Shown piece by piece: positions 4,499-24,610 of a stretch of DNA of 64,000 bases; position 1 is the first letter of the stretch; the number at the start of each line of letters is the position of its first letter. The DNA comes from an uncultured Acidobacteriota bacterium. GTDB lineage: Bacteria; Acidobacteriota; Terriglobia; Terriglobales; Acidobacteriaceae. Made by a program: the position numbers and the translations under genes. The stretch spans positions 124,001 through 188,000 of the forward strand of contig CAILAC010000008.1 in assembly GCA_903832055.1 (NCBI GenBank), in the 5' to 3' direction. The notes below the pieces were generated by a model. That model was not told the origin of the DNA. It made no database searches and saw only the letters and a list, made by a program, of their open reading frames with translations.

Positions 4499-4514
4499 TT
4501 CGGTCCAGCTCAAC

Positions 4515-7664: not shown

Positions 7665-7688
7665 GGGAACCCCTCAAGGAGACTCGCC

Positions 7689-9327: not shown

Positions 9328-9690
9328 CTATCCCTTCCAGAACGTCATCACCAGGCCACCAGCCACAATCAGCGTCCCGCCCGCCAGGATCGGCAGCGTC
9401 GGCGTCTGCTGAAAGCGCACCTTTGCCACAATCTGCGCCACCACAAAAAACAGCACCACGTACACGCCCAGCAGCTTGCCAAAATCCCATTGCGGAAGAT
9501 TCACAAAAAATCCATAGGAAGCCAGCACCGCCGTCCCTCCCAGCAGCCAGAGCGCCCGCGTAATTCCTGTCGATTGGTACAGCCCCGACTGAAAACACGC
9601 ATCTCCGGATACCTCAAGGAACGCTGCAAAGGACAGCACCACATACGCGCCAATCGGATTGGCGACAACTTGATTCAAAAGACTCTTCAA
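9328..9690 (-). CDS. Small four-helix membrane protein, SMR-like
   Basis: Protein of 120 residues with four hydrophobic helices and short loops, the size and topology of small multidrug resistance transporters. The first helix contains AAFLEVSGDACF, which matches the helix-1 position of the essential glutamate in EmrE-type proteins (AEVIGT). The later helices are less similar: the second ends in FFVNLPQWDFG, and the fourth contains AGGTLIVAGGLVM. It may be an SMR-related exporter or an uncharacterised relative. It is divergent from the small-protein/ammonium transporter pair and ends in its own terminator. Confidence 0.6.
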   Translation of the reverse strand: MKSLLNQVVANPIGAYVVLSFAAFLEVSGDACFQSGLYQSTGITRALWLLGGTAVLASYGFFVNLPQWDFGKLLGVYVVLFFVVAQIVAKVRFQQTPTLPILAGGTLIVAGGLVMTFWKG

Positions 9691-9861
9691 ATTAGACCTC
9701 AGGGAAGAAATTGTGTTCGACTGCTTAGCCTGATCCTACCAAAGCCTCAATCCCGCAATTTTCAAACCTAAAAACCCCGTATTCCCGATAGACTAGTCTT
9801 TTATTAACATTCATCGTTGCTACGCATTCGCAGCCCTCGCGCATGCACTCAAGGAGTTTCT

Positions 9862-10041
9862 TTGAAGTTGATTGGATGCTTGCTGCTCCTCTCAGGCTGG
9901 CTCATCGTCATCGCCGCGCTGGTCATGTTGACCACGTTTACGCAGCGCGCCGCCTTCGTCACCGCCGGCATCGGTCTGGAAATCCTCGGCCTCGTCCTCC
10001 TCACGCAGAACTACACAGCCGAGCAGCGGAGGGCAAAATGA
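9862..10041 (+). CDS. Small two-helix membrane protein upstream of amt
   Basis: A 59-residue protein starting at a TTG that follows AAGGAG by five bases. The upstream ATG at 9817 would add residues without hydrophobic character. It has two hydrophobic segments, LIGCLLLLSGWLIVIAALVM and FVTAGIGLEILGLVLL, and a short charged tail. Its stop codon overlaps the ATG of the ammonium transporter (ATGA), so the two are likely translationally coupled. No known family was recognised. Coupling suggests an accessory subunit or a helper for the transporter. Confidence 0.65.
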   Translation: MKLIGCLLLLSGWLIVIAALVMLTTFTQRAAFVTAGIGLEILGLVLLTQNYTAEQRRAK

Positions 10042-11354
10042 ACCCCGCCACCCTCACCCCCGCCAATCTCGTCCTCTGCATCGTCTGCATCCTCCTTACT
10101 CCCCTCGCCGCCGCCGGCCTCGCCCTCATCCACCAGGGTCTTGGACGCTCCCGCAGCGCCGCACAGGCCATGCTGGCCACCCTCTGCGTTCTCGCCATCG
10201 CCGCCATCGTCTTCGTCCTCGTCGGCTCAGCATGGACAGGCTTTGCCGGCGGTGCTTCCCAATCGATTCACGCCGCCGGAGCCACCTGGGACTGGCTCGG
10301 CCGCGAAACGCTCTTCGCCCAGAACATCCACTTTGACAACCCCGCTCAGCTGCACGCCGCCCTCGAAATCTGCCTGCACATGTTCGCCGTCGGCATCGCT
10401 GCCATGATTCCCTTGAGCGCTGGCACCGACCGCTGGCGCCTGGCTCCCATCTGCGTCGCCACCGCTCTCTATTCCGCCTTCACCTACCCCTTCTTCGCCC
10501 ACTGGGTCTGGGCCGGCGGATGGCTCTCCCAGCTCTCCCAGAACTTCGGCGGCATCAGCGCCATCGCCCCCTTCTTTGACTCCGGCGGCGCAAGCCTCAT
10601 CCACGTCGTGGGCGGCCTCATGGCGCTCTCCGTCGCCTGGATACTTGGACCCCGCCGCGGCAAATACTCTGAAGACAAAATGGCCACCGCCATCCCCGGA
10701 CACAACATCGTGCTCGTCCTCTTCGGATGCATCCTCGCCCTCGTCGGCTGGATCGGCCTCAACTCCGCCGCCTCGCTCCTCTTCTTCCACGTGCAGCCCG
10801 AGCAGATCGTCGGCGTCATCCTCAACTGCGTCCTCTCCGCCTCCGCCGGCCTGCTCGCCGCTGTCATCACCACCCAGGTCCGCTACCGCAAGCCCGACGC
10901 CTCCCTCAGTGCCAACGGATGGATCGCCGGACTCGTCGCCGGATCAGCCGCGGGTGGATTCGTCTCGCCCCTCGCAGCCACTTTCACAGGGGCAGTCGCC
11001 GGACTTCTCGTTACCTATATGGTTGAAATGTTCGAGCTCCACCTGCTCGTCGACGACCCCGGCGGCGCCATCTCGGTCCACGCCGGCGCAGGCCTCTGGG
11101 GTTTGGTCGCCGTAGGCCTCTTTGGCCAGCACCCCGGCGCCTTCGGCAGCCACATGCTCGCTCAGTGCATCGGCATCGCCACCCTCCTCGGACTCATGCT
11201 TCCCTTCATTCACGTCTGCAACCTCTTCCTCAACCGCTTCCTCCCCTATCGCGTCGACCGCGACGGAGACTGGCAAGGCATGGACATCCGCGAACTCGGC
11301 GCAGGAGCCTACCCAGAATTCGTAATCCACGCCGACGAATTCATCCCCCGCTAA
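10038..11354 (+). CDS. Ammonium transporter, divergent Amt family
   Basis: Polytopic membrane protein of 438 residues with about eleven helices. The helix-1 pattern GLALIHQGLGRSRS corresponds to the GLALFYGGLVRxKN of Amt proteins. Pore residues seen are the aspartate of FFDSGGAS, the first pore histidine in LIHVVGGLMALSVA and the second in ISVHAGAGLWGLVAVGLFG. The helix normally reading GWFGFNxGS reads GWIGLNSAAS, so the gating phenylalanine and recruitment serine appear replaced. It shares a 4-base overlap with the small membrane protein upstream. No glnK was found beside it, although glnK is a common neighbour of amt. Confidence 0.85.
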   Translation: MNPATLTPANLVLCIVCILLTPLAAAGLALIHQGLGRSRSAAQAMLATLCVLAIAAIVFVLVGSAWTGFAGGASQSIHAAGATWDWLGRETLFAQNIHFDNPAQLHAALEICLHMFAVGIAAMIPLSAGTDRWRLAPICVATALYSAFTYPFFAHWVWAGGWLSQLSQNFGGISAIAPFFDSGGASLIHVVGGLMALSVAWILGPRRGKYSEDKMATAIPGHNIVLVLFGCILALVGWIGLNSAASLLFFHVQPEQIVGVILNCVLSASAGLLAAVITTQVRYRKPDASLSANGWIAGLVAGSAAGGFVSPLAATFTGAVAGLLVTYMVEMFELHLLVDDPGGAISVHAGAGLWGLVAVGLFGQHPGAFGSHMLAQCIGIATLLGLMLPFIHVCNLFLNRFLPYRVDRDGDWQGMDIRELGAGAYPEFVIHADEFIPR

Positions 11355-11383
11355 CCCCTCCCCCATCTGAATCAATCACCACC

Positions 11384-11434
11384 GCGGGTGCCCCACATCT
11401 CGCTTCTGAGATGTGGGCTGGCCGGGTTACCCGC
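11384..11434. repeat. GGGTGCCCC hairpin repeat
   Basis: GCGGGTGCC is followed by a perfect 10-bp stem (CCCACATCTC/GAGATGTGGG) with the loop GCTTCT at 11402-11407, then GGGTTACCCGC, whose ACCCGC pairs with the first GCGGGT. It lies just after the amt stop codon. Confidence 0.75.
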
Positions 11435-11548
11435 GTCCCCATCAGACTCTGAGACGGCAAGCCAGGGCTCTCGTCGTATACTCCGCATGAACCGCAAATG
11501 TTGCTTGGAGAGCGCGCTCTCAACGATTTGCCGTCTTGGGGTGGACTT

Positions 11549-13093
11549 GTGAATTCGTCTTCTGTTTCAACATCGTGGCCTTGGAAGCATCGCAGCAGTC
11601 ACCTGATAGCCGTTGCTGGCATCGGCTGCATTCTGGGGCTTGCCGGCTGCGGTGGCAGTCAAAGCGCCACTTCCGCCCAGCAGTCATTAGTCATCAACTG
11701 GAACAAGGTCACCGTTACCTCAAAGACCACTCCCACACTGCAGGTGGTCGTGAACCCGCCCCTGCAGCCCGGCAAACCCCTAGGCGACAGCGCCTATAAG
11801 TTCGTGAGCCAGCTCGGCCCCGACTACATGCGCTATGCAGGTTGGTTCCCCTACCCCAGGCTGTCTGTGGCCGAATTGCAACCGCCAACCTCGCTCGGCA
11901 CTTCATGGGACTTCACCCTCATCGATCCCATGGTGAAAGAGTTCCTGACCGCCACCCAGGGGCACCCAACGGTGATGAGTTTGAGCACCATCCCGCAATG
12001 GATGTTTGTCACCGATGCGCCCGTCACCTATCCCGACGACCCAAGTCAGGTCGCGTGGAACTACGAGCAGGGGACCGTATTACGCGACCCAACCTGCCAG
12101 GAACTCGGCGACTACTACCACCGGGTGGCAAGCTGGTATGTGGACGGCGGCTTCTCCGATGAAAACGGCGTGTGGCATACCTCAGGACACCACTACCACC
12201 TCCCCATCTGGGAGGTATTCAACGAGGTCGATTTTGAACACAGCACCTCAAAAGAGGACTACACGACCCGCTACGATGCCGTCGTAGAGGGCGTTCGCAG
12301 CGCAAGCCCTGACACCAAATTCATGGGAATGGCCCTCGCGTCGCCCTCCAGCCATCTGGACTTCATCCAATACTTCCTCAATCCCGCCAATCACAAACCG
12401 GGAATTCCGATCGACTACATCTCGTACCACTTCTACGCAATCCCAGCCTCCACCGAAACAGTCGACAACTGGCAATACACCTTCTTCTCGCAGGCTGAGT
12501 CGTTTTTGAATTCAGTTAGTTCCATCGAGACAATTCGCAAAGGCCTGTCTCCGCAGACCAAAACTGATATCGATGAGCTGGGAACCATTTTGCCGACCGA
12601 TAACACCTCGACGGACTCTGTGCCACCACCGGCCGCTTATTGGAATCTCTCCGGCGCAATGTTCGCCTACATGTATGTGGAACTGGCAAAAATGCAGATT
12701 GATGTGGTCGGCGAATCGCAACTCGTCGGCTTCCCATCGCAGTTTCCCAGCGTGAGCATGATGGACTGGCAGAACAATCAACCCAACGCCCGTTTCTGGG
12801 TCCTCAAACTGCTCAAGGACAATTTCCATCCAGGCGACCAGCTCGTGGAAACCGACCTGCTCATTCCCAACGCCGTTGATCTGGAGGCGCAGGCTTTCGT
12901 CACCCCCTCCGGTCACAAGCTACTGCTGATAAACAAGCGAAACAGGGCCATCAACCTCCCCATACCAGATGCGGCAAACGCCACCGCCACCACGGTCGAT
13001 CCAGAATCTGGAGAAGGACCCGCCCGCAGCGTTAGTCCAATCGACGGCAGCATCACCCTGCAACCCTTCGCCGTAACCGTTGTGACCTGGTGA
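11549..13093 (+). CDS. Glycoside hydrolase, GH39-like lipoprotein
   Basis: Predicted exported lipoprotein of 514 residues. The GTG at 11549 follows GGGGTGG by six bases and gives a compact signal peptide ending in the lipobox LAGC (Cys34). An ATG at 11498 lacks a ribosome site and would lengthen the N-region. The catalytic domain resembles clan-A glycosidases such as GH39 beta-xylosidases: the acid/base glutamate is in IWEVFNEVDFEH and the likely nucleophile in TDIDELGTI, with IDYISYHFY between them. A beta-sandwich tail with HKLLLINKRNR follows. The exact sugar specificity cannot be read. It is convergent with the sugar catabolism cassette that follows. Confidence 0.78.
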   Translation: MNSSSVSTSWPWKHRSSHLIAVAGIGCILGLAGCGGSQSATSAQQSLVINWNKVTVTSKTTPTLQVVVNPPLQPGKPLGDSAYKFVSQLGPDYMRYAGWFPYPRLSVAELQPPTSLGTSWDFTLIDPMVKEFLTATQGHPTVMSLSTIPQWMFVTDAPVTYPDDPSQVAWNYEQGTVLRDPTCQELGDYYHRVASWYVDGGFSDENGVWHTSGHHYHLPIWEVFNEVDFEHSTSKEDYTTRYDAVVEGVRSASPDTKFMGMALASPSSHLDFIQYFLNPANHKPGIPIDYISYHFYAIPASTETVDNWQYTFFSQAESFLNSVSSIETIRKGLSPQTKTDIDELGTILPTDNTSTDSVPPPAAYWNLSGAMFAYMYVELAKMQIDVVGESQLVGFPSQFPSVSMMDWQNNQPNARFWVLKLLKDNFHPGDQLVETDLLIPNAVDLEAQAFVTPSGHKLLLINKRNRAINLPIPDAANATATTVDPESGEGPARSVSPIDGSITLQPFAVTVVTW

Positions 13094-13108
13094 GATGAGG
13101 CACCAGCC

Positions 13109-14407
13109 TCACCCCACCCGAATCGGCTCACGCACCACCACCAGATACGAAGCCGCCCCCAGCACGGAAACCATCGCGCAGATTACCAGCGCCAGATGAA
13201 ACGAGTGCGTCCGGTCCAGCAGCCAACCTGTCACCACCGGCGCAAACGAAGCGCACACAAAGCTACCAAAGTTCTGAATCGCCGCCACCGAACCCACCAC
13301 CCCCGCCGGAGCCAGCGCCTGCACCAGGCACCACCCCGCGTTCCCCGCCAGGTACGTGAAAAACAGCGCCATACCCATCCCCAGCGCCGCCCCCGTCGCC
13401 CCTGTAAGATGCTGCACCAGCAGCGTACACAGCCCCGAACACGTCAGCCCCATCACCAGCAGCGTGCGGTAGCTCCGCACCGGATCCACCCCCCGCCGCA
13501 CCAGCCAATCCGCAATCACCCCGCTCGCCATCATCCCCACCGCCCCGCAGCTAAAGGGAATCACCGCAAACATCCCCGTCGCCGCCAGGGTCAGATGATG
13601 CTCCGCCTGCAGGTAATTCGGCATCCACGACATGTACAGCCACACCGTGTAGTTGATCCCGCCAAAGCCCAGCATCATCCCCCACATCGTCCGCTGCCGG
13701 AACAGTCCCAGCCACTGCCTCAGCGAAACACCCGGCCCCTTTCGGCTCTCACTCGACCCTTCCCGGTCCGACCCCGCCAGGTACGCCCGCTCCACCTCGC
13801 TCACCACCGCAACCTTGCGATCCCGGTAGCACCCAAACCACACCAGTGCCAGCACCACCCCCGGCACCCCAATCGCCATGAACATGCCCCGCCACCCAAA
13901 CGCCAGCATGATCCCCGTCAAAATCGGCGGCGCCACCGCCTGCCCCAGGGTCGTCGAAGCGTTGATCACCGCCATCGGCGTCGCCCGCTCCCGCACATCA
14001 AACCAGTCGTGCACCACCTTCACCGACGAAATCACAAACGGTGCCTCGCCCACCGCCAGCCCCACCCGCGCCGCAAAAAACGAAGCAAATCCCCGCACCG
14101 AACCCGTCAGCACCTGCGTCACAGACCACAGCAGCATCCCCGCGCCCATCACCAGGCGCTCACCAAATTTATCCAGCAGAATACCCACCGGCAGTTGCGA
14201 AACCGCATACGCCATCGAAAACACTGACAGCAGCACACCCATCCGCGTCGCAGACATCCCCAGCTCGCCGCGAATAGTCGTATTCGCAATCGCCAGCGAA
14301 CCCCGGTCTACATAGTTGATCACCCCGCTCACCGCCAGAATCGCGACAGCAATCACCTGAATACGCGCAATCCGCCGCGGCTTCTCTCTCTTCTGCGGCC
14401 CCTGCAT
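13109..14407 (-). CDS. MFS transporter, anion:cation symporter family
   Basis: Inner-membrane transporter of 432 residues with twelve helices, of the ACS family that carries hexuronates, galactonate, glucarate and similar sugar acids. The segment INYVDRGSLAIANTTI in helix 1 is the family signature, and the helix 2-3 loop reads GILLDKFGERLVMG. The ATG at 14407 is chosen because a much earlier in-frame start at 14602 would overlap the lactonase gene with low-complexity, glycine-rich residues. It lies 23 bases after the lactonase stop, so it is probably the last gene of a sugar-acid operon: epimerase, lactonase, transporter. Confidence 0.9.
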   Translation of the reverse strand: MQGPQKREKPRRIARIQVIAVAILAVSGVINYVDRGSLAIANTTIRGELGMSATRMGVLLSVFSMAYAVSQLPVGILLDKFGERLVMGAGMLLWSVTQVLTGSVRGFASFFAARVGLAVGEAPFVISSVKVVHDWFDVRERATPMAVINASTTLGQAVAPPILTGIMLAFGWRGMFMAIGVPGVVLALVWFGCYRDRKVAVVSEVERAYLAGSDREGSSESRKGPGVSLRQWLGLFRQRTMWGMMLGFGGINYTVWLYMSWMPNYLQAEHHLTLAATGMFAVIPFSCGAVGMMASGVIADWLVRRGVDPVRSYRTLLVMGLTCSGLCTLLVQHLTGATGAALGMGMALFFTYLAGNAGWCLVQALAPAGVVGSVAAIQNFGSFVCASFAPVVTGWLLDRTHSFHLALVICAMVSVLGAASYLVVVREPIRVG

Positions 14408-14430
14408 CAACGGCTCATCCAGCGTCTGGC

Positions 14431-15525
14431 TCAATGCCCCAGCACCAGCGGCAAGCCCGCAATCTTCAGCTTTACCCGATAAACGCTCGTGCTCGCCGTA
14501 ATGTACAGCGTCTTGCGATCCGCCCCCGCCCAGGTCAGGTTGGCCACCTTTTCCCCGATCAGAATCGTCCCCAGCGGCTTGCCCTCCGCCGTAAAGATCC
14601 AAACCCCTCCCGGCCCCGCGCCATACACATTGCCCTCAACATCCACCTTCACACCATCCGGATTCCCCGGCCGCGGGTCAGCCGAAGCGTCATAGAACAA
14701 CTTCCCATCCGTCAGGCTTCCATCCGCCTGTACCCGGTACTTCATCCAGAATTTCTTCGGCTCTGAATTCGAGACATACATCGTCTTCTCGTCCGGAGAA
14801 AACGCCAACCCATTCGGCCGCGGCAGGTCCCCCACCAGCAATTGCAGCTCCGCCCGCGCCGGCTCCGCGCCAGCCTTCTGCCGCAGCGCATGCGCCGCCC
14901 GGTACACCCCATTCACCGCCAGCTCCTTTTCCGGGTCATTGTCCTTCTGCGTGCGAAACCCATACGGCGGATCAGTGAAATACAGTGACCCATCCGACCG
15001 GTAAACCAGGTCATTCGGACTGTTCAACTTCTTGCCCTTGTATGAGTCCGCCAGCACCGTAATCGGCCCACCCGACGCCATTCCCTCAAACCGGTACACA
15101 TTTCGCTGCGCATGCCCCGCCACCGTCAACCGCCCCCGCGCATCAAGCGTCATTCCATTCGAACCAGGCTCCGGCCCGCCATATGCCGCAGCCCCCTTGT
15201 ACCCGCTCGGCTGCAGGAACGTCGCCGCGCCCTTCCCCGGCGTCCACTTCAAAATGCGGTTCGCCGGAATATCGGCAAAAAACAACCCGCCATCCGCCCA
15301 CACCGGCCCCTCAGTCCACGTGTATCCCGTCGCAATGCACTCCAGCACCCCACCCGCCGGCACAATCCGGTCCAGCGCAGCGTCAAGCCTGTCCACGCGC
15401 AATGCTGCCGAAGCCTGCGCGCAATCCGAAGCTGCCTTCAAAGCCTTCGCCTTCGTAGCCAACCCCATCCCACCAACCACCGCCATACCCACCACCAACA
15501 CCCTCAGCACCCACGTCCAACGCAT
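14431..15525 (-). CDS. Secreted SMP-30/gluconolactonase family protein
   Basis: Predicted exported lactonase with a six-bladed propeller, 364 residues. The ATG at 15525 has GGAGG six bases upstream and opens a signal peptide (MRWTWVLRVLVVGMAVVGG). The alternative TTG at 15552 is weaker. Metal-ligand signatures are visible: the glutamate of YTWTEGPVW, the asparagine of LNSPNDLVY and the aspartate of NPDGVKVDVEG. Such enzymes open sugar lactones to aldonic acids. The next gene is a sugar-acid symporter, which fits periplasmic hydrolysis followed by uptake. Confidence 0.88.
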   Translation of the reverse strand: MRWTWVLRVLVVGMAVVGGMGLATKAKALKAASDCAQASAALRVDRLDAALDRIVPAGGVLECIATGYTWTEGPVWADGGLFFADIPANRILKWTPGKGAATFLQPSGYKGAAAYGGPEPGSNGMTLDARGRLTVAGHAQRNVYRFEGMASGGPITVLADSYKGKKLNSPNDLVYRSDGSLYFTDPPYGFRTQKDNDPEKELAVNGVYRAAHALRQKAGAEPARAELQLLVGDLPRPNGLAFSPDEKTMYVSNSEPKKFWMKYRVQADGSLTDGKLFYDASADPRPGNPDGVKVDVEGNVYGAGPGGVWIFTAEGKPLGTILIGEKVANLTWAGADRKTLYITASTSVYRVKLKIAGLPLVLGH

Positions 15526-15642
15526 AGCAACCCTCCAGAAACACACGCCCAAGTACCCGCCAAAGCCCGCGGCTCAGAATTCACTCAGACTCAAGCCCAC
15601 AACGAATAAACGCTCAGCCCGGCTCTGTCAACGCGGCCGCGC

Positions 15643-16497
15643 TCAGTCACGCAAATCGCCCGCCGCCATCGCCCGCAGAAATCCAATCCCCTCAAACGCC
15701 ACTGTCTCCGGAGTCGCCGCAAGATCCCGCCAGATCGCTGCTGCCGCCGCAATCTCCGGCACATTCGCGCCAAAGCTCTCTATCGTCAGCCAGCCGTCGT
15801 ACCCAGTCTCGCGAATCGCCGCAAACACCGGCCCCCACTCCACATGCCCGCTTCCCGGCGTCCCGCGGTCGTTCTCGCACGTATGCACATGCTTCAAATG
15901 CCGCGCCACCGTTCGCAATCCATCCGCAATGTTCTTCTCTTCAATATTGGCGTGAAACGTATCAAACAACACTCCCACACTCGCGTGCCCCACCTCATCG
16001 CAAAACCGTGCCGCATCCTCTGCCGTGTTCAAAAAGAACGTCTCAAACCGGTTCAGCGGCTCGACCGCAGCCTCCACACCATGCTGCGCCAGCCACGGCC
16101 CCAGTTGTTGCCACCCCTCCACCGCCCATTTCCACTCATCCGCCGTCCTGCGCCGCCCCGGCAGATACCCCACGGGAGCATACATCGGCCCCGCAATCAC
16201 CTTCGCCCCCGCCTCCGCCGTCACCGCAATATTCTCGCGAAGCTGCTCCACAGCCCGCGCCCGCCCCGCCGCATCCCCGGCAATCATGCTCAGCCCATCC
16301 GGCATCACCGAACAAATCGTGCACTCCATGCCCGTATCCGCCAGCCCCTGACGCAGCGCCTTCACCGCAAAATCCCGCCCCGCATACATCAGCACCTCTA
16401 CCCCGTCAAAGCCCGCCGCTCGCAGTCGTGGAAAAAGCGGCAGATGCGAAGCATCAAAGTTCGCCGTCCAGATCAGCAGGTTCACTCCAAATTTCAC
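15643..16497 (-). CDS. Sugar epimerase, D-tagatose 3-epimerase-like
   Basis: TIM-barrel protein of 284 residues of the xylose isomerase-like group. The GTG at 16497 is chosen because GAGGGAG lies at ideal distance and the protein then begins with MKFGVNLLIWTA, as in relatives. The segments PLNRFETFFLNT, LFDTFHANIEEKNI, HVHTCENDRGTPGSGH and GWLTIESFG carry the two glutamates, the aspartate and the histidine that bind the metal in D-tagatose/D-psicose 3-epimerases. Its position before a lactonase and an MFS transporter suggests catabolism of an uncommon ketose or its derivative. The true substrate is unknown. Confidence 0.85.
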   Translation of the reverse strand: MKFGVNLLIWTANFDASHLPLFPRLRAAGFDGVEVLMYAGRDFAVKALRQGLADTGMECTICSVMPDGLSMIAGDAAGRARAVEQLRENIAVTAEAGAKVIAGPMYAPVGYLPGRRRTADEWKWAVEGWQQLGPWLAQHGVEAAVEPLNRFETFFLNTAEDAARFCDEVGHASVGVLFDTFHANIEEKNIADGLRTVARHLKHVHTCENDRGTPGSGHVEWGPVFAAIRETGYDGWLTIESFGANVPEIAAAAAIWRDLAATPETVAFEGIGFLRAMAAGDLRD

Positions 16498-16689
16498 GCG
16501 CACTCCCTCAAGGCAAGAATTCCGATGCCGTAGCAACCCCGCCTCAGCACCGCCGCAATTCTATCCGCAAAGGCTCCCACCCCATCAACCAGCAGACGAG
16601 GCCCTCAACTTGACCCAAATTGTCGAAAGAAATAGTCCGCTAGCAATCGGCCCCGACCTCTCTGTACTTTCTGCCGTGCTTACAGGACA

Positions 16690-16711
16690 AAGGAGAGACA
16701 ATACTCTCCTT
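16690..16711 (-). terminator. Hairpin at the end of the ClC gene
   Basis: Perfect 8-bp stem AAGGAGAG/CTCTCCTT with a 6-base loop, adjoining the stop codon of the minus-strand chloride channel gene. There is no long T-run, so terminator function is only likely. Confidence 0.45.
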
Positions 16712-18327
16712 CAGTTGTGACCACCAAGTTCAGGCGGAACGTAACCGAAGAGCCTGAGCCGCTCACTTTCACGGTCGAGGGATCGTCCTCTCCCTCGAAG
16801 CAAATCCTTGAGCGATAGCTCGCCACATGCTTGCCCTGTCGTTCGATCCACGACTGGTATTGTTTCTAAGCCTTCAGTAGCCATGATCTCTGCGGCGCCG
16901 CGCGTTGTTGAATCAGCGTAAACGAAAGTTCTTGAGATCGCTGCCAAGGAAGCTCCTGCCGTAATCGACGACATAACCTCTCGTACGAGGACAAGTTCAA
17001 GTGGATCGACGCCATATTCGCGAGTCAGATGGTAACCTCGCCGGCTAAGCTTTTCTGTCAGAATTGAACGGGGCATCAACAGAGCTGTCACAAGGTACGA
17101 CGCAATGCAGGCCACCGCAAGAGGCAGCAGGGCAGGCAGGCAGTGAGTAATCTCCAGGCTGAACAGAATCGCAGTAAGCGGCACTCCAAGCGACCCTGCA
17201 AGCATTGACCCCATACCGATCAAAGCCCAGAATGCCTGCATCTCAGCCGGTACATGAGCCAGATGCCCCGCAATTGCACCCACGGCTCCACCAATCATCA
17301 GCAGCGGCGCAAGCACGCCCCCAGAGGTTCCTGATCCCAGCGAAAATGCCCACATCAGCGATTTTGCGACCAGAATTCCGACAATGAGCCCGATAGGTGC
17401 GCTCCCTCTGAGCAACTCTGCGATATTGTCGTACCCCACTCCGAGGCCGCGCGGAAAGAAGTAGCCTCCTACTCCAATGCCGACACCGCCAATTGCAGGC
17501 CACCACATCCAGTGGAGATGAAGATGCTCAAAGAGATCTTCAAACGCATACATCATGCGGCTCACTCCCGCAGAGACAAGGCCCAGGAAAGCTCCCAGGA
17601 AGAGCGACCCAAGGACAAACGAAACATTTGCAGCGTCCGCGATGAGCGGCATTTGAAACAGTGGCCCCGCACCCAGCCAATACACACGCAAAAGCGCCGC
17701 CGTAGCACTGGCAATTGCTACCGGTACCAGGCTCCGGGGACGCCATTCGAAGAGCAAAAGTTCCACCGCCAGCAGAATCGCAGCCATCGGCGTATCAAAA
17801 GTCGCTGACATACCCGCTGCCGCTCCCGCAACCAATAGCGTGGTCCTTTCCGCATCCGTTACATGCATCCATTGGCCAATCAGCGAACCAACGGCTCCCC
17901 CCGTCATGATGATCGGTCCTTCCGCGCCAAACGGGCCACCCGAACCAATGGCAATCGCGGCCGAGACGGGTTTCAGAATTGCGATCTTCGGATCGACCTT
18001 GGCTCTGTGGATGAGGATCGCTTCAATCGCCTCTGGGATTCCGTGGCCTCGTATCTTGTCAGAACCAAACCGGGCCATCAAGCCGACGATCAAACCGCCA
18101 ATCACAGGAACCACAACCATCCAGTGCCCCAGAGGGCTCTCCGCAGGAGAGACAGAACTTAGGCTCAGGCGATGGTAGTAAAAGATGTTGGTTGAGACTG
18201 CAATACAGCGCAGAAGCAGCAAGGCCAGGATTGTCGCCAGGATGCCAATGCCAATCGAAACGCTGGAAAGTAACCAGACCCGACTATCAACCGTAAAATC
18301 CCTGAGAATGGAGGGCTCTGACTGCAA
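16711..18327 (-). CDS. ClC-type chloride channel/antiporter with CBS domains
   Basis: Inner-membrane ClC protein of 538 residues: a channel domain (about 20-430) followed by a C-terminal CBS-type region (about 450-525). The three ion-filter motifs are present in modified form: GHGIPEA for GSGIP, GAEGP for GREGP with the gating glutamate kept, and GSGTSGGVLAP for GxFxP. The ending YVPPELGGHN is typical. The start is a TTG preceded by an AAGGCG-like site; no ATG in the frame was better. The marR gene ends 42 bases upstream on the same strand, so they probably form one operon under the palindrome at 18806. Confidence 0.92.
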   Translation of the reverse strand: MQSEPSILRDFTVDSRVWLLSSVSIGIGILATILALLLLRCIAVSTNIFYYHRLSLSSVSPAESPLGHWMVVVPVIGGLIVGLMARFGSDKIRGHGIPEAIEAILIHRAKVDPKIAILKPVSAAIAIGSGGPFGAEGPIIMTGGAVGSLIGQWMHVTDAERTTLLVAGAAAGMSATFDTPMAAILLAVELLLFEWRPRSLVPVAIASATAALLRVYWLGAGPLFQMPLIADAANVSFVLGSLFLGAFLGLVSAGVSRMMYAFEDLFEHLHLHWMWWPAIGGVGIGVGGYFFPRGLGVGYDNIAELLRGSAPIGLIVGILVAKSLMWAFSLGSGTSGGVLAPLLMIGGAVGAIAGHLAHVPAEMQAFWALIGMGSMLAGSLGVPLTAILFSLEITHCLPALLPLAVACIASYLVTALLMPRSILTEKLSRRGYHLTREYGVDPLELVLVREVMSSITAGASLAAISRTFVYADSTTRGAAEIMATEGLETIPVVDRTTGQACGELSLKDLLRGRGRSLDRESERLRLFGYVPPELGGHN

Positions 18328-18369
18328 AATCGCCTTCTTTCATCCGCGCGGTGTAACATCCCGCTGCCG

Positions 18370-18783
18370 TTATGGTTTTGAATTGCGTATCTGCGTGAGT
18401 GCCAAAATCAGGCTCGGGGCCAACTCGCGCAACTGTTGTGAGTGGACGTCAGAGAGCTGATGGAGTGCGCGCTGACCTTGCGCCGTCAGCTCCAGCACTA
18501 CGCATCGGCGATCGTCAGGATCATGAGTTCTGCGCACCAGGTCCGCTGCTTCACACCGTTTACTCAGCTCAACAACGGTATGGTGCCGAAGAACCATAAC
18601 CTCGGCTATATAACCGATCGTCACCTGAGTGCCATTCGGAGCGCCGGCAATCTGCAATAGAAGCTGGTGCTGCTGTGGTTGCAGACCCGTCGCAGCCGCG
18701 GCTTGCTCGCTGAACTGCAGGAAACGCCGAATCTCACGGCGGAATTTAGCCAGATGTTGAATGTCATCGCGTTCAGTAGTCAT
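18370..18783 (-). CDS. MarR family transcriptional regulator
   Basis: DNA-binding protein of 137 residues with the MarR winged-helix fold. The recognition part reads IGYIAEVMVLRHHTVVELSKRCEAADLVRR and the wing is THDPDDRRCVVLELTAQGQRAL, the family hallmark. Helices at both ends would form the dimer. It is the first gene of a two-gene unit with the ClC gene. A perfect 7-bp inverted repeat 23 bases upstream of its start is a strong candidate for its own operator, suggesting autorepression relieved by an unknown ligand or by acidity/anion stress. Confidence 0.92.
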   Translation of the reverse strand: MTTERDDIQHLAKFRREIRRFLQFSEQAAAATGLQPQQHQLLLQIAGAPNGTQVTIGYIAEVMVLRHHTVVELSKRCEAADLVRRTHDPDDRRCVVLELTAQGQRALHQLSDVHSQQLRELAPSLILALTQIRNSKP

Positions 18784-18805
18784 GGATAAAGGTTTCGCTA
18801 TAGAT

Positions 18806-18822
18806 ATATCGTAACACGATAT
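18806..18822. promoter_or_regulatory. Probable MarR operator
   Basis: Perfect inverted repeat ATATCGT-AAC-ACGATAT, 17 bases, located 23 bases upstream of the marR ATG and within an AT-rich promoter-like stretch. The size and symmetry are as expected for a MarR dimer. Confidence 0.75.
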
Positions 18823-18940
18823 TATTTCGTAGGGAATGGAAGACCGCAGTCTTGAGCTGCCTTACTGCCCTGCAGACAGCCGTTGCTCTGCCAAAGGGGT
18901 GCCCGGTGAATGTAGATTTGCTGGCTTTTGCGTATTCCAG

Positions 18941-18990
18941 CCGGGTGCTCCAGGTCCCGCCTCTGGGACCTGGGTTTCTCAAATCCCCAC
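18941..18990. repeat. GGGTGCCCC hairpin repeat
   Basis: CCGGGTGCTCC, then a perfect 9-bp stem CCAGGTCCC/GGGACCTGG with loop GCCTCT, then GGTTTCTCAAATCCCCAC. Same layout as the copies at 11384 and 22500. Confidence 0.75.
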
Positions 18991-19239
18991 AACACCGAAC
19001 CGTCCCACTGGAGCAAGCATCACCCTTCAGGCTACAAGAGCAAAACTACACTTAGGCTCCGGCGCACTGACTCAAGACGCGCAACCCACCCGTTCCGCCC
19101 ACCAAACTACCGCTCGCGAGCATTGTGACTCATTTTCTTACAAAGGTTTCGTAACTCCCCAAGACATCCGCATGTAGACTGTTATCGACTTCCCTCGCCA
19201 CTCCAAACGCTCACCGCACAGTTTCAGGATAATCAGCCC

Positions 19240-22200
19240 GTGTCTAGACTTACTCTTGTCCTCGCCGCATTCCTGTCCATTTCCTCCTTCGCCGCCACCC
19301 CACCCGCCCATCTCGATCAAAACTACGGCAAACTCCCCCAAAGTTTCGGAGCCAATCAGGGCCAGACCGACCCCCAGGTTAAATTCACCTCTCGCGGCCA
19401 GGGCTACTCTCTATTCCTCACCAACTCCGCCGCAGTCCTCTCCCTCTCCAAGACTCCATTCAAATCTGGTTGTCATCCTGAGCAGAGCGAAGGACCTGCT
19501 TCTAACCCTCACCACCCATTTCAACCATGCTCTGCCCAACAATCACCAGACACTCTGCGCATGTCTCTCGCCCACTCCAACCCCGACGCCCTCGTCGAGG
19601 GTACCGACCCCCTCCCCGGTAAGTCCAACTACTTCCTCGGCAACGACCCTGCAAAATGGCACACCGACATCCCCACGTACGCCAAGGTCCGCTATAGCCA
19701 GGTCTACAAAGGCATCGACCTCGTCTACTACGGCAACCAGCGCCAACTTGAATATGACTTCGTCGTCGCCCCCCAAGCCAACCCCAACCAGATCGCCCTG
19801 AAATTTGACGGCGCAACCAAACTCCACCTAACCCGCTCAGGCGACCTCGAAGTGATCGCAAAAAGCGGCCAAATCGCCTTCCACAAACCAGAAATCTACC
19901 AAACCAAAGACGGCCACCACGTCCCAATCTCCGGTAGGTTCACCCTCGCCGCCAATAATTCCATCGCCTTCCAAATCGGCACCTACGACCACACCCAACC
20001 CCTCACCATTGACCCCGTCCTTGGTTATTCAACTTACCTCGGCGGCTCCACGAACGACGAGGCCAATGCAATTGCCGTTGACGCCAGCGGACACGCCTAT
20101 ATAACCGGGCAAACACAATCGATAGATTTCCCAGTGACAAGCGGGGCGTATAAGACGACAAATCAAAATCTCGGATCCGGTCTTGCCTTTATAACAAAAC
20201 TCAATCCCACGGGCACGGCTCTCATATACTCCACCTACTTGGGTTCCGATGGTGGCGTCGACGGTAAGTCCATCGCCATCGACATCTCCGGAAATGCCTA
20301 TATTACAGGCCCTACAACGTCATTACAATTCCCAGTCACAAGTAACGCCTTCCAAAGTACAAACAATGCGGGTCTGGGCGAGACAGCTTTTGTGACTAAA
20401 CTTAACCCCACTGGATCCTCACTAGTCTACTCCACATATTTAGGTGGAAATTATTACGACTATAGCAATGCTATAGCCATTGATTCATTGGGGAACGCAT
20501 ACATCATCGGGGCCACAGAGTCACCGAAATTTCCAGTAACAATCGGCGCAATCCAGTCCAAGAATGTTGATGGTTTGGGGGGTACTGCCTTCCTAACCAA
20601 ACTAAACCCTGAGGGAACAGGACTCGTTTACTCAACTCTGCTCGGAGGAATTAAAGCAAGCGAAGGACGATCCATCGCAGTCGACAACTCGGGCAATGCT
20701 TACGTCACCGGACATGGGGCCTTCCCCTTGGCCAGCGGTGTATCCAACACCAAAGGCGGCGGGGTCGGAGTCGCAGAGATCAACCCCACAGGAACCGGAT
20801 TAGTTTTTTCAACATTCTTCGGCGGAACTACTTTCGACCAAGGTAACTCAATTGCCATAGACAGCTCTGGAAGCGCATATATTACGGGCTACACACTTTC
20901 TTCAGATTTCCCCGTCACCCAAGGTGCATTTATGACTACCAATAAGGTAGGCGGGGATGGTGTTGCCTTTGTAGCCAAGCTAAATCCGGCGGGGACAGAC
21001 CTCGTCTACTCCACGTATCTCGGTGGATCGCTTGGAACAGGTGACCGAGCCAACTCAATCGTTATAGACACTTCCGGGAATGCCTTTATCACGGGCATTA
21101 CGAAGTCACTGGATTTCCCCGTAACGAGCAACGCATTCCAAATGGTAAATAATGAGAACGCTCATTACGGAACAGCATTTCTCACCGAACTCAATCCGAC
21201 GGGCTCCGCGCTAATCTACTCCACGTTTTTAGGCGGCTCTGATTACGAAGTCGGCAACGCAATCGAGCTTGATAGCTTTGGGAATATATACCTCGCTGGC
21301 TCTACAGCATCCTCAGACTTCCCAATAACATCTGGTGTACTTCAACCTACAAACAAGAATGTAGGCGGAACGAATACGGCCTTCATTACGAAATTCGATC
21401 CAAACTCCGCTTCAACCACCACAACGATCACCTCAAGCGCCAACCCCGCGACAACTGGCTCTAGCATCATCTTCTCCGCGACTGTCAAGGCCGCCTCAGT
21501 TACGCCATCCGGAACTGTCACGTTCATCGTCGACGGTCAAACTGTCAGCACGACTACACTCTCGAATTCCGGCATCGCTGACTACGTCACTTCTGCATTG
21601 GCAGCAGGGAGCCACACAGTAACCGCCTCGTACCAGGGAGACGTATCGCTAGCACCGTCGGAGAGCGCGCCGCTTTTAGAGACAATTCTCCGACCCCAAG
21701 TTGCAGCGCCGACCTTCTCGCCCGCTGTTGGCAACTACTCATTGCCCCAGAGAGTTACCCTGACAGACAGCACCAAAGGGGCAGTAATCTACTACACAAC
21801 CGATTTAACACTACCCGTCACAACAGTCACCCAATATACCGGAGCCATTCCAGTAAATTCCACCACCACCATCAAAGCATTCGCCATCGCACCCGGCTAC
21901 ACGAACAGTATCTTCGTATCCGGCACCTACAGCATCGTTGTCATTCGTACTGCTGCGCCCACATTTACGCCGGCCCCGGGCATCTATCACGTAGCGCCGA
22001 CTGTTAGCATCTCGGATGCGACCCCCAAGGCGACCATCTACTACACGACCGACGGCACGACCCCAACTACAAGTTCCCCGAGGTACTTGGGAGCAACTCG
22101 CATCACAAAGTCAGTTACCTTCAAAGCGATTGCTATCGCCAATGGTTTCAGTACCAGCAGTGTGACCTCGGCCACCTACACTGTTCACTTCCCGCCGGTT

Positions 22201-22485
22201 GTAACGACCCAATCAGCAACCGCAATTCAGACCACACAAGCCAACTTGAACAGCTCGATCAACGGCAAAAATCAGACTAGCAAGGCCTGGTTCGTCTATG
22301 GCACCAGCCAGACAGCCCTTACCAAGCAAACAGCCATTACTCAACTGCCCGCCAGCCTCACCAACCAGATTTTTGCGGTCCCGCTGACCGGACTCAAATC
22401 CCAGACCACCTACTACTACCAGGCAGTAGCACAGACCCAAGGCGGCACAGTGTCAGGCTCAGTCCTCAGTTTCAAAACGAAATAG
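19240..22485 (+). CDS. Secreted SBBP-repeat protein with chitobiase-like modules
   Basis: Exported protein of 1081 residues; GTG start and signal peptide (MSRLTLVLAAFLSISSFAA). Residues 25-260 are the conserved N-terminal domain of SBBP proteins (FGANQGQTDPQVKF; LPGKSNYFLGNDPAKW; GIDLVYYGNQRQLEYDF). About eight beta-propeller repeats of the form YSTYLGGS...GNAYITG...FPVT follow between residues 262 and 725. Then come a bacterial Ig-like domain (about 730-820), two chitobiase-type C-terminal modules (PTFTPAPGIYHVAPTVSISD) and a fibronectin-III-like end. Residues about 75-105 carry an interspersed repeat translated as CHPEQSEGP. It probably acts at the cell surface; no enzymatic motif was seen. 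Confidence 0.88.
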   Translation: MSRLTLVLAAFLSISSFAATPPAHLDQNYGKLPQSFGANQGQTDPQVKFTSRGQGYSLFLTNSAAVLSLSKTPFKSGCHPEQSEGPASNPHHPFQPCSAQQSPDTLRMSLAHSNPDALVEGTDPLPGKSNYFLGNDPAKWHTDIPTYAKVRYSQVYKGIDLVYYGNQRQLEYDFVVAPQANPNQIALKFDGATKLHLTRSGDLEVIAKSGQIAFHKPEIYQTKDGHHVPISGRFTLAANNSIAFQIGTYDHTQPLTIDPVLGYSTYLGGSTNDEANAIAVDASGHAYITGQTQSIDFPVTSGAYKTTNQNLGSGLAFITKLNPTGTALIYSTYLGSDGGVDGKSIAIDISGNAYITGPTTSLQFPVTSNAFQSTNNAGLGETAFVTKLNPTGSSLVYSTYLGGNYYDYSNAIAIDSLGNAYIIGATESPKFPVTIGAIQSKNVDGLGGTAFLTKLNPEGTGLVYSTLLGGIKASEGRSIAVDNSGNAYVTGHGAFPLASGVSNTKGGGVGVAEINPTGTGLVFSTFFGGTTFDQGNSIAIDSSGSAYITGYTLSSDFPVTQGAFMTTNKVGGDGVAFVAKLNPAGTDLVYSTYLGGSLGTGDRANSIVIDTSGNAFITGITKSLDFPVTSNAFQMVNNENAHYGTAFLTELNPTGSALIYSTFLGGSDYEVGNAIELDSFGNIYLAGSTASSDFPITSGVLQPTNKNVGGTNTAFITKFDPNSASTTTTITSSANPATTGSSIIFSATVKAASVTPSGTVTFIVDGQTVSTTTLSNSGIADYVTSALAAGSHTVTASYQGDVSLAPSESAPLLETILRPQVAAPTFSPAVGNYSLPQRVTLTDSTKGAVIYYTTDLTLPVTTVTQYTGAIPVNSTTTIKAFAIAPGYTNSIFVSGTYSIVVIRTAAPTFTPAPGIYHVAPTVSISDATPKATIYYTTDGTTPTTSSPRYLGATRITKSVTFKAIAIANGFSTSSVTSATYTVHFPPVVTTQSATAIQTTQANLNSSINGKNQTSKAWFVYGTSQTALTKQTAITQLPASLTNQIFAVPLTGLKSQTTYYYQAVAQTQGGTVSGSVLSFKTK
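19470..19500. repeat. TGTCATCCTGAGC interspersed repeat inside a gene
   Basis: TGTCATCCTGAGCAGAGCG and the following AAGGACCTGC match a repeat type seen widely between genes in acidobacteria and other bacteria (recalled, not searched). Here it is in frame within the SBBP protein gene, encoding CHPEQSEGPA, with inserted sequence reaching to about 19555. Confidence 0.7.
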
Positions 22486-22499
22486 TCGGAGACTCGCGG

Positions 22500-22527
22500 T
22501 CCCAGGTCCCGCCCTTGGGACCTGGGA
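22500..22527. repeat. GGGTGCCCC-type hairpin after the SBBP gene
   Basis: Perfect 11-bp stem TCCCAGGTCCC/GGGACCTGGGA with loop GCCCTT, 15 bases after the SBBP gene stop codon. The stem is nearly identical to the copy at 18941, but the GGGTGC prefix is missing. It may also help end transcription, though no T-run follows. Confidence 0.72.
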
Positions 22528-22722
22528 TCCCATCTCCACCGTGGAACAAAGCCCGTGAAATATAGCATTTTGGCTATGGGCAAAATCCACCTGTTGCGAA
22601 TGCACAAAGCCCCTAAATTCCCCGCAAACCCATCTCCGTCAATCCAAAGCAGTTCCAACAAATTCCCTTGACAAATCCCGCCCCGCAATCAAACCCAAAA
22701 GTGTTCCACGTGCAACAATCCG

Positions 22723-23706
22723 CTACCGCCCCCGTGCTACCAGGTACAAAAGCCCAAAAATCAAAATCGGCAGCAGCGCCAAAACCCCATACAAAACCAG
22801 CCGCCGCCGCCCCGGCCCCTCCTCGGATTCCTCGCTATCCCCCAAACCGCGCTCCATCACACCCACTTCAGCCAGATGCTCCAGATCGTGCGCAAACTCC
22901 CGCGCATGCGGATAGCGGTTCTTCGGCTCCCTCTCCAGCGCCCGGTAAATCACCTCTTGCAGTTGCTTTGAAATCGACTTCTCCAGGCTCCGCGGTGCGG
23001 GCGGCGCATTCATCAGCCGCTCATTCATCACCGCAAACGGATTTGGCCCGGAAAACGGCACCCGTCCCGTCAGCATCTCGTACAGCATCACGCCGGTTGA
23101 ATAAATATCGCTCCGCGCGTCCCCGCGCTTGCCCCGCACCTGCTCCGGCGAAATATAGTCCGGCGTCCCCATGCTTGGGGAAAACTTCGCAAACGTAAGC
23201 CTTCGCGAACCGGCGTTGGCTGCAATCCCAAAATCAATCAGCCGAATATGGTCCTGCTCATCCACCATGATGTTTTCAGGCTTCAGATCGCGATGCACCA
23301 CACCGTGTGCGTGCAAATGCTCCAGCGCCTCGCAGATTGCCCCCGTCAATTTCACCGCCAGCGCCACCGGCAGCTTCTTCTCTTCATTCAGAATTGTCCG
23401 TAGCAGCCGCCCGTCAATCCACTCCATCACCATGTACACACGTGACCGGTCAGGGTTGGGATACACCTTCATCACTCCCGGATGGTCGATCGTGCGGCCA
23501 ATCTCTTCTTCGCGCTCAAACCGCTCCACCAGCGCCGGGTCGCTCTCGATCTCAGGATGCGGCAGCTTGATGGCCACCCGCTGGCCGGTGTTCAGGTCGC
23601 GCGCGCGCAGCACCGTCGCCATACCGCTGGTCGCAGCAATGCTTTCGATCTCAAAGTGATCGAGTTTGTCTCCCGGTTCAATGTGCAAATTTGAAGTCAG
23701 CGTCAC
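22723..23706 (-). CDS. Membrane-anchored Ser/Thr protein kinase (Hanks type)
   Basis: Protein of 327 residues: kinase domain (about 15-275) and one C-terminal transmembrane helix (VLYGVLALLPILIFGLLYLV), so the C-terminus has no extracytoplasmic sensor. The GTG at 23706 overlaps the phosphatase stop by four bases (GTGA). Catalytic elements are VAIKLP (lysine), HRDLKPENIM and LIDFG, with GTPDYISPEQ as the activation segment end. The glycine loop is odd: the ungapped match to GxGGMG reads ATSGMA, so all three conserved glycines are replaced (A25, S27, A30). It is translationally coupled to the PP2C phosphatase, the usual opposing partner. Confidence 0.92.
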   Translation of the reverse strand: MTLTSNLHIEPGDKLDHFEIESIAATSGMATVLRARDLNTGQRVAIKLPHPEIESDPALVERFEREEEIGRTIDHPGVMKVYPNPDRSRVYMVMEWIDGRLLRTILNEEKKLPVALAVKLTGAICEALEHLHAHGVVHRDLKPENIMVDEQDHIRLIDFGIAANAGSRRLTFAKFSPSMGTPDYISPEQVRGKRGDARSDIYSTGVMLYEMLTGRVPFSGPNPFAVMNERLMNAPPAPRSLEKSISKQLQEVIYRALEREPKNRYPHAREFAHDLEHLAEVGVMERGLGDSEESEEGPGRRRLVLYGVLALLPILIFGLLYLVARGR

Positions 23707-24518
23707 AGAAGGCGATAAGGGCGTCCGCGGTACAGCCCCATCCTCTCCACACCCTTCACACGAATGACCTGTGCGCTGATGTTGTCGTGACCGCCGGCGT
23801 CGTTTGCTGCTTCGACCAGGCGCGCGGCCGCAGTGGCCAGGTCGCTGGTCGAGTGCAGCAGAGCCGCGATCCGCTGCTCTGGCACAAATCCATGCAGGCC
23901 GTCTGAACAAAGCAGCAGCAAATCGCCGGGCATGATATTCACCGTAATCGTGTCGGCGGCTACAAACATTTCATTGCCCAGGCTGCGAGTGAGAATGTGG
24001 CGATTCTCAGCCACATCGGCCTCGGCCTGGGAGAGGATTCCGAGCCGCATCTGCTCTGCTACCACTGTATGATCTCGCGTGAGTTGCGCCCCGGAACCGT
24101 GCCTGTAGAGGTAGCAGCGCGAGTCTCCCACATGCGAAATTACTGCTGAATCGAAACGCAGCGCGCAGGCCACGAGGGTCGTTGCCATGCGGCCGCCGCT
24201 AACTGGCGCGCCGATGCCGCCTCGACCCTGGCCGCCGTCGTAGACTGCCATGTTCGCTTCCTGCACCAGCTTCGGCAGCAGCGATACATGCATTACGCCC
24301 TTGGGGATTTTTTTGAACCCGTTCACAACGGTGTCGATTGCGAGCTTTGAAGCAACCTCGCCGCGATCCTGCCCACCCAAACCGTCAGCGAGAGCAAACA
24401 GCCATCCCTGCGACTGAACTTTGGCCGGCGTCTCTGGCACGACGTGCCCGAGAAAGTCTTCGTTGTGATCCCGAACCCGGCCGGTGTCAGAGATCTCGGC
24501 AAACTCGATATTTAACAT
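23703..24518 (-). CDS. PP2C-family protein phosphatase
   Basis: Cytoplasmic metal-dependent Ser/Thr phosphatase of 271 residues. Metal-binding motifs are intact: RDHNED near residue 16, ALADGLGGQDRGEVAS near residue 42, SHVGDSRCYLYR, CSDGLHG and the final GGHDNIS. It is the natural antagonist of the kinase encoded directly downstream with a four-base overlap. The ATG has a GGAG ten bases upstream. A possible 32-residue reading frame overlaps its start by seven bases. Confidence 0.94.
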   Translation of the reverse strand: MLNIEFAEISDTGRVRDHNEDFLGHVVPETPAKVQSQGWLFALADGLGGQDRGEVASKLAIDTVVNGFKKIPKGVMHVSLLPKLVQEANMAVYDGGQGRGGIGAPVSGGRMATTLVACALRFDSAVISHVGDSRCYLYRHGSGAQLTRDHTVVAEQMRLGILSQAEADVAENRHILTRSLGNEMFVAADTITVNIMPGDLLLLCSDGLHGFVPEQRIAALLHSTSDLATAAARLVEAANDAGGHDNISAQVIRVKGVERMGLYRGRPYRLL

Positions 24519-24610
24519 CTATATTTCTCCAGAATCCGCTTCAATTCTCGACTGGTGACGATTCGGCGCCCGTGCGCTCGTTGGGCCAGGTCTGCATTCC
24601 AGGTCCGCAT
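24512..24610 (-). CDS. Possible 32-residue leader peptide before PP2C
   Basis: A short frame starting ATG CGG ACC at 24610 and ending TAA inside the first codons of the phosphatase gene (7-base overlap). It encodes a basic, helix-prone peptide ending RELKRILEKYRC. The first codons contain a near-perfect 13-base direct repeat (CCAGGTCTGCATT/CCAGGTCCGCATT on the plus strand). Overlap with the next start suggests coupling, but no clear ribosome site precedes it and no homologue is known to me. It may be chance. Confidence 0.25.
   Translation of the reverse strand: MRTWNADLAQRAHGRRIVTSRELKRILEKYRC

Follow-up and report, generated by a model that had tools for sequence, protein, structure and literature searches.

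Hairpin repeats of an acidobacterial genome are probable RAYT-mobilised REP elements

Four copies of a short hairpin repeat lie in a 64,000-nucleotide stretch of DNA from an uncultured bacterium of the Acidobacteriaceae (hereafter the window). These repeats are very probably non-autonomous repetitive extragenic palindromic (REP) elements mobilised by REP-associated tyrosine transposases (RAYTs), which are Y1-type HUH enzymes akin to the transposases of IS200/IS605. They show several of the properties by which REPs are recognised: a short hairpin (21-65 nt), many copies, a mostly intergenic location and a RAYT with a matching stem. A RAYT-REP system with a GTGC guide is the best-supported reading of the data. 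An earlier note on this DNA had suggested either REP-like elements or a structured RNA. The REP-like reading was upheld by RAYT genes flanked by matching hairpins, by matches to the NCBIfam model NF047646, by co-occurrence across 41 genomes and by inverted pairs of copies.

Copies of the family across the genome

For the genome-wide collection that the earlier note had proposed, two covariance models were used, R1 for short and R2 for long copies. The first 150 candidates per search were scored, and the counts are lower bounds. At E<=0.01, at least 146 non-overlapping copies were found (94 by R1 and 52 by R2), with many different stems that were mostly paired. The sequence CGGGTGCCCCA occurred 55 times in the genome and its reversed control once; the pattern CCAGGTCYN{4,14}RGACCTGG had 20 sites, compared with none in the control. 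Overlap with gene calls was seen for 15 of the 146 copies, against a coding fraction of 0.69 given by a crude gene caller (69% coding).

The short form is about 46 nt long and reads ANNCC-GGGTGC-stem-loop-WTTC, the stem-loop having a CCC...GGG foot. This form was derived from 64 of the 81 short copies, after 17 with like flanks were dropped. The most frequent exact stem among the 81 was CCCACATCTC (26 copies), followed by CCCCGGTCTC (8), CCCAGGTCTC (6), CCCCGGTCTG (5), CCCAGGTCCC (3) and CCCCGGTCCC (3). Longer stem subfamilies were of the CCCACCTTCA... and CCCATCC... types.

REPIN-like inverted pairs, 192 nt apart and with related inner sequence, were present on several contigs (C2:77072/77264, C12:208011/208203, C16:1134872/1135064, and C12:209460/209652, the second copy of which had an E value of 0.027). 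The composites (C2:77072-77299, C12:208011-208238, C12:209460-209687 and C16:1134872-1135099) carried outer GGCGGGTGGC-like motifs. A second motif, CGGGTGGC, recurred tens of nucleotides from copies and in tandem units (L016, L017, L031), as well as at G000:C11:77640-78080 and C12:207800-208330; it may be where cleavage occurs or where an element ends.

RAYT genes flanked by matching hairpins

The genome has seven Y1_Tnp genes. NF047646 (REP_Tyr_transpos) scored over its cut-off in five of six proteins tested, for example with 101.9 bits for L049 and 101.7 bits for L051 against a curated cut-off of 80. Two of the genome's own RAYTs, at C2:404082 and C10:227251, belong to the relevant clade, and each sits between copies carrying its own stem (CACCTTCAAAAC for the former, CCGGTCCC for the latter). 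At C2:404082 the flanking stem is CCCACCTTCAAAAC; three copies upstream form a 128-nt tandem array and one lies downstream, all in the same orientation, and the outermost upstream copy has the guide GGTTGC. At C10:227251, CCCCGGTCCC copies lie on both sides, the downstream one inverted. The open reading frame (ORF) at this locus (L051) crosses the inverted copy and stops just after it, so that the copy encodes part of the C-terminal tail.

The same arrangement, with other stems, was seen in relatives. The best 80 of 351 Acidobacteriaceae loci found were taken as a RAYT locus set, which draws on this family and its close relatives (Acidicapsa, Terracidiphilus, Occallatibacter and many metagenome-assembled genomes). 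The HUH motif HVH was present in 79 of the 80 loci and the Y...NP motif in 77. Upstream of the RAYT, 63 of 79 flanks had a hairpin within 450 nt, and downstream 65 of 76 did; among control stretches at a distance of about 1 kb, the number was 22 of 127. The downstream hairpin was inverted at most loci, unlike the direct downstream copy at C2:404082.

Stem comparisons at these loci used the 97 of 146 anchored hairpins that were kept for NTGC or GTGG. Where both flanks could be compared (36 loci), their 5' arms were 0.96 identical, against 0.68 after shuffling, and 24 pairs were identical. The stem sequence varied with the lineage of the RAYT (Mantel test over 61 loci: r 0.56, 0 of 2000 permutations), and the nearest RAYT carried an identical arm at 30 of 61 loci, where 4.4 were expected. 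Across 41 genomes, a RAYT match was found in all 10 genomes with at least 12 copies, compared with 6 of the 31 with at most 3 copies (Fisher 7e-6 without tree correction; one of the ten, G002, has broken genes only). The linked RAYT-type transposase that the earlier note had suggested looking for is thus present, as judged by flanking hairpins, NF047646 and co-occurrence.

The 'ACATCT' subfamily, the most frequent among short copies and represented in the window by the copy at 11386, has a stem that adjoins RAYTs in G012, G011:C4 and L330. The window's genome, 98.8% complete, yielded no RAYT to match it, so that its partner may have been lost or the subfamily may have arrived from another source.

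Other RAYT types in the same genome, at C12:92367, C10:311239 and C10:103065, had no matched hairpin pair within 1.5 kb on each side. The related RAYTs L251, L252 and L271 (in G022, G010 and G001:C13) were accompanied by clusters of several TGTGC-tagged hairpins with the stem CCC[AG][CT]TCATCGC.

Compensatory change and decay of the stem

In sites taken without regard to the stem, pairing was commonest behind the full prefix. Behind the 30 distinct exact prefixes (of 55 places), at least 8 of 10 foot-anchored pairs formed in 25 and at least 9 of 10 in 20; the corresponding numbers for 1482 control CC sites were 27 and 7. With the looser GGGTGCC, at least 9 of 10 pairs formed at 89 of 494 sites; most occurrences of this heptamer by itself are therefore not copies.

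The covariation score was 0.305 for alignment A1 and 0.510 for A2, compared with 0.111 and 0.168 after shuffling (0 of 500 shuffles each). The number of pairs with two-sided changes was not unusual (36 of 500 shuffles for A1 and 127 of 500 for A2), nor was the number of pair types (252 and 282 of 500). Five covariation measures were computed, and the rows of A1 and A2 were hand-picked after the hairpins had been viewed, so that these scores lean towards pairing. The RAYT-flanking hairpins kept for NTGC or GTGG 5' of the foot (75 of 136) scored 0.387, against 0.107 after shuffling.

Among the 81 short copies, 51 had a common stem and 30 were divergent. In the divergent copies, 16 pairs had changed on both sides and were still paired, while 17 pairs were broken, which indicates that resident copies also decay. 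The earlier note had inferred a maintained fold from arms that changed together, and had named random, uncompensated change as the opposite outcome. Its inference is supported with a limit: the compensatory change is real and its covariation score exceeds shuffled expectation, but it is mainly divergence between RAYT-specific subfamilies, and resident copies contain broken as well as compensated pairs. The constraint looks as if it acts on the mobile template and not on each resident copy.

By analogy with TnpA-REP of E. coli, the RAYT would bind the folded single strand and read the GTGC guide 5' of the foot. It would then cut and rejoin one strand, and single hairpins and inverted pairs would in this way be copied or moved. 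Mobilisation would be limited to hairpins that fold and fit the RAYT, so that the two arms would change in concert; after insertion, a copy would drift. The copies in the window are dispersed residents.

The GTGC guide and the residues that may read it

The constant part at the foot is GTGC, with the variants CTGC, TTGC, ATGC and GTGG. Among the 146 anchored RAYT-flanking hairpins, the tetramer 5' of the foot was GTGC in 84 and NTGC in 93; the canonical REP guide GT[AG]G was found in 4. Another 24 read GGTG or TGCC, as if the foot were shifted by one base.

TnpA-REP of E. coli reads GTAG via W94, Q95, E100, H101 and R104 (PMC6006769). We aligned the clade to 4er8 and counted residues in the 77 of 80 loci with an [FY]W anchor, W being given by the search itself. 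Q95 was kept in 65 of 77. Position 100 was D in 76 (E in E. coli) and position 101 was F in 75 (H in E. coli). Position 104 was mostly W, H, F, S or Y, and its six commonest residues (69 of 77) exclude R. The E. coli set of guide-reading residues is therefore not that of the clade. Judged from these alignments, the guide and its putative reader have both diverged from the E. coli model, and they may have changed together. With the stem, three parts of this RAYT-REP lineage have departed from that model, and its dozens of natural combinations of guide, stem and protein form a data set on how a single-strand transposase reads a hairpin.

Other explanations of the hairpins

The compensated changes could have arisen by template switching between the arms (quasipalindrome correction) instead of selection for folding. 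Many stems do differ by clean two-sided changes, and 11 of the 81 short copies have only compensated departures. We regard this origin as unlikely, since the stem type follows the RAYT lineage and is mostly common to both flanking copies, and wobble intermediates exist, such as CCCGGGTCCC/GGGACCTGGG in L365. Structured RNAs or transcription terminators, selected at each site and resembling REPs only secondarily, would fit the position of the 123 copies that lay outside gene calls and had a called gene on each side, 93 of which lie behind a gene of the same direction and 11 in divergent spacers, and would fit stems that are mostly still paired. However, window positions 1-30000 gave no Rfam match at gathering score, and none of 16 terminator-like sites at 10500-23500 coincided with any of the three copies in that range. 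The consensus tail reads WTTC and has no run of T, the hairpins flank RAYTs as matched pairs, and the 17 broken pairs in divergent copies do not suit selection at each site. We therefore rejected this second suggestion of the earlier note, to which we assign a very small probability. Repeated duplication of a single sequence without structural constraint, which the earlier note had named as a refutation, is next to impossible: one exact stem accounts for 26 of the 81 short copies, but these copies contain 12 distinct fully paired 10-bp stems, and the 97 RAYT-flanking copies contain 27 distinct arms.

Some observations weigh against the RAYT-REP system with a GTGC guide. Among upstream flanks, 16 of 79 had no hairpin at the threshold; among downstream flanks, the number was 11 of 76. 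Three RAYTs were matched in genome G019, and R1 gave no copy there; other GTGC hairpins accompany two of these RAYTs, and none is visible beside the third. The count of guides varies with the placement of the foot: in an alternative register GTGC was found in 65 of 136. A census by covariance model favours paired copies, and two models cannot cover every stem.

Orientation of copies and GC skew

The orientation of copies followed the local GC skew. Copies less than 5 kb apart were grouped into 81 clusters; 70 of these lay on the C-rich strand and 6 on the G-rich one, and the remaining 5 were mixed. All 64 single-orientation clusters with |skew|>0.1 were on the C-rich strand. Individually, 130 of 146 copies agreed with the skew. 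Among the 16 exceptions were both inverted copies beside the RAYT of C10, together with several paired composites. This link is a strong correlation in this genome.

Orientation followed the skew in every class of neighbouring gene strands. In the four classes of neighbour-gene strand, the copy was on the + strand in 10 of 13, 6 of 6, 25 of 27 and 39 of 41 cases where skew was negative, and in 1 of 12, 0 of 5, 3 of 12 and 1 of 7 where it was positive. In a logistic fit to 123 copies, skew dominated and the left neighbour had a smaller effect. Gene strand was also rejected as the cause of the skew in the window, where all 12 genes tested (641-25862, both strands) had third-position skew of the same sign. 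Third-codon-position skew in the window reaches -0.76. Deamination alone was rejected as well: between the 5-kb bins of weakest and strongest skew, C on the C-rich strand rose from 0.298 to 0.414, G fell from 0.283 to 0.209 and T from 0.209 to 0.174, with A nearly constant, which C-to-T change on the other strand does not fit by itself.

Contig C10 is the longest fully sampled contig (98% covered); elsewhere, sampling used tiles set at copies, so that the background is limited. Along C10, the skew changes sign many times and is near zero in places. In 10-kb bins, the number of copies was 0 in 12 bins with |skew| below 0.05, 3 in 17 bins up to 0.1, 1 in 22 up to 0.15, 13 in 27 up to 0.2 and 23 in 28 above 0.2. 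None of 105 rotations of the C10 copies fitted the skew as well. A structural scan did not find a REP at every skew edge; it counts for little in either direction (its stem register was two bases off, and no more than 60 of the 146 known copies were recovered). At C10:261-275 kb and 535-547 kb, blocks of 12-14 kb have the opposite skew within a domain and are perhaps inserted islands.

Results from relatives varied. The 28 top-scoring loci showed no link between orientation and 3-kb skew (16 of 28). A G001 tile had a + copy, a flip from -0.24 to +0.29 and then - copies; two G011 tiles had a - copy in G-rich skew, and the G011 RAYT tile had five copies and no skew. The G001 tile L287 is an extreme domain of strand-asymmetric composition.

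Polarity of the skew and its possible causes

The skew was one-sided around copies. In a regression on 939 bins with a block bootstrap, skew upstream of copies was -0.083, -0.072 and -0.066 at 4-8, 8-16 and 16-32 kb, while downstream it was -0.023, -0.004 and +0.006. The upstream-downstream difference excluded 0 at these three distances and included 0 at 0-2, 2-4 and 32-64 kb. In brief, the skew persisted for tens of kilobases upstream and was gone within about 8 kb downstream, regardless of gene strand. The polarity held when the bins outside C10 were taken by themselves; C10 alone gave the same signs with bootstrap intervals that include 0. When counted by clusters on C10 alone, it was seen in 11 of 20 and was not significant (66 of 1000 random high-skew placements were as extreme).

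Jumps of skew along C10 were asymmetric, upward transitions being sharper than downward ones (skewness of the jump distribution +1.04, 0.38 to 1.58, at 8 kb). Upward jumps of at least 0.17 numbered 12, of which 5 lay within 2.3 kb downstream of a copy and 7 did not (p 9e-5 by a simple binomial, the distance having been chosen after the data were viewed). The four downward jumps were at least 18.9 kb from any copy. Rotation gave 3 of 205 for downstream and 107 of 205 for upstream.

Insertion preference is the most likely account of the skew link, with about an even chance of being right: copies would enter a strand that is often single-stranded or rich in target motifs, the skew itself having another cause. 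IS608 and ISDra2 provide a precedent, as their Y1 transposition goes into the lagging-strand template (PMC6006769). This account also suits skew domains without a recognised copy, such as C10 840-930 kb, and the missing orientation link at the 28 loci of relatives. Taken alone, however, it leaves unexplained the one-sided upstream skew and the sharp jump just downstream of several copies. The mosaic could instead be ordinary replication skew that recent inversions have broken up, copies having inserted by strand and then moved with the inverted DNA, as the sign flips along contigs and some sharp edges suggest. We give this a low probability, because 12 of 20 blind 20-kb tiles in G001 and G011 had |skew|<0.035, so that strong skew is not chromosome-wide there, and inversions do not predict upward jumps sharper than downward ones.

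The boldest account, polar processing, is a long shot. Polar processing of DNA, specific to one strand, would begin at REP hairpins: synthesis or resection, started when a RAYT nicks a copy, would run upstream for tens of kilobases. Repeated over time, this would produce a domain of skew whose edge is sharp just beyond the copy and whose upstream tail is long. Eukaryotic replication origins are surrounded by N-shaped skew domains, with a sharp rise and a gradual fall that resemble the skew here. From this likeness, copies could conceivably mark secondary initiation sites on a bacterial chromosome. If the skew link were causal, REPs would shape chromosome composition over tens of kilobases, which would bear on the long-standing question of REP function.

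Comparison with known systems

The GTGC-tagged RAYT-REP is a variant of the known REP/RAYT system in which guide and reader residues differ. As in the REPs, REPINs and REPtrons of E. coli and Pseudomonas, where the RAYT is TnpA-REP (PMC6006769, PMC3116915), there are many short, mostly intergenic palindromes, a RAYT flanked by repeats, inverted pairs, a stem type for each RAYT and several types per genome. The guide differs, being mostly GTGC here and GT[AG]G in canonical REPs, and so do the residues D100, F101 and, mostly, non-R at 104, with Q95 mostly kept, when compared with TnpA-REP (PMC6006769). Replication-coupled, strand-specific insertion of single-strand transposons is also known in kind (PMC6006769).

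The TIRYT/TIRtron group, which includes T. saanensis, K. versatilis, A. capsulatum and G. mallensis, likewise has acidobacterial RAYT-like genes with flanking inverted repeats that lack GTAG, some in repeat families (PMC3733652). Its printed motif is GGGGWSAS, in contrast to GGGTGC plus a hairpin here, a comparison made by description only (PMC3733652). Some of the terminal inverted repeats of TIRtrons may be this element. The CGTC repeats of the same paper have a CGTC tag and no RAYT link, unlike the GTGC tag and RAYT link here (PMC3733652).

Two TnpA-Y1 groups also come close (PMC6006769). Subclass 2.6 shares WQ and YIH[QN]NP-like motifs and 'atypical' flanking structures without GT[AG]G; its members are mostly from Bacteroidetes and have NH[LIV]H, whereas the clade here has EH[VI]H and mostly Y[IM]HRNP. 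Class 3 (Planctomycetes and Acidobacteria) shares the acidobacterial hosts and atypical hairpins, about 600 in Solibacter, but has a CnGA foot and a YV..EQ motif instead of GTGC and a YIHRNP-type motif. A lack of strand bias is mentioned for Solibacter (PMC3174227). In the RepRanger survey, a table row for Granulicella aggregans ends with the counts 5,307 and 1,009 (PMC12306157); the survey's main text does not contain the words RAYT, GGGTG or GGTG. Among the papers listed by literature searches, none described GTGC-tagged REPs or REP-linked skew, as judged from titles and abstract openings.

Copies in the window

The features of the window are listed in Table 1. The hairpins reported by the earlier note were read directly in the sequence and were matched by R1 at 11386, 18943 and 22495. 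Its degraded copy at 3208 proved to be a truncated prefix, with a near-complete copy beginning at 3222. The copy it had placed at 22500 without a prefix has its hairpin, and a degenerate guide occupies the prefix position.

Table 1. REP copies and associated features in the 64-kb window
Feature	Position	Strand	Description
REP copy	11386..11421	+	Guide GGGTGC 11386-11391; hairpin 11392-11417, CCCACATCTC / GAGATGTGGG; tail; R1 E 9e-7
REP copy	18943..18978	+	Guide GGGTGC; hairpin 18949-18974, TCCAGGTCCC / GGGACCTGGG; tail TTTC; R1 E 3e-7
REP copy	22495..22530	+	Degenerate guide CGCGGT; hairpin 22501-22526, CCCAGGTCCC / GGGACCTGGG; R1 E 1e-3
REP copy	3222..3257	+	Guide 3222-3227; hairpin 3228-3253, two stem positions unpaired; R1 E 5e-6
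Truncated guide/foot fragment	3208..3220	+	GGGTGCCCCACTT; directly 5' of the 3222 copy
Strand-asymmetric composition domain	1..25000	.	GC skew -0.08 to -0.36 per 2 kb; contains all four copies

Beyond the four copies, the window had no R1 or R2 match at E<=1 among the matches listed, and the pattern GGGTGCCCCN{2,30}TGGGGTGCCCC had none. The prefix was not over-represented in the window alone (16 matches with at most one mismatch, 27 expected); the case for a family therefore rests on the prefix together with the stem, and on the genome. The skew of the composition domain falls to about 0 at 26-28 kb. The hairpin at 22501 starts 16 bases past the end of an ORF of 1081 amino acids.

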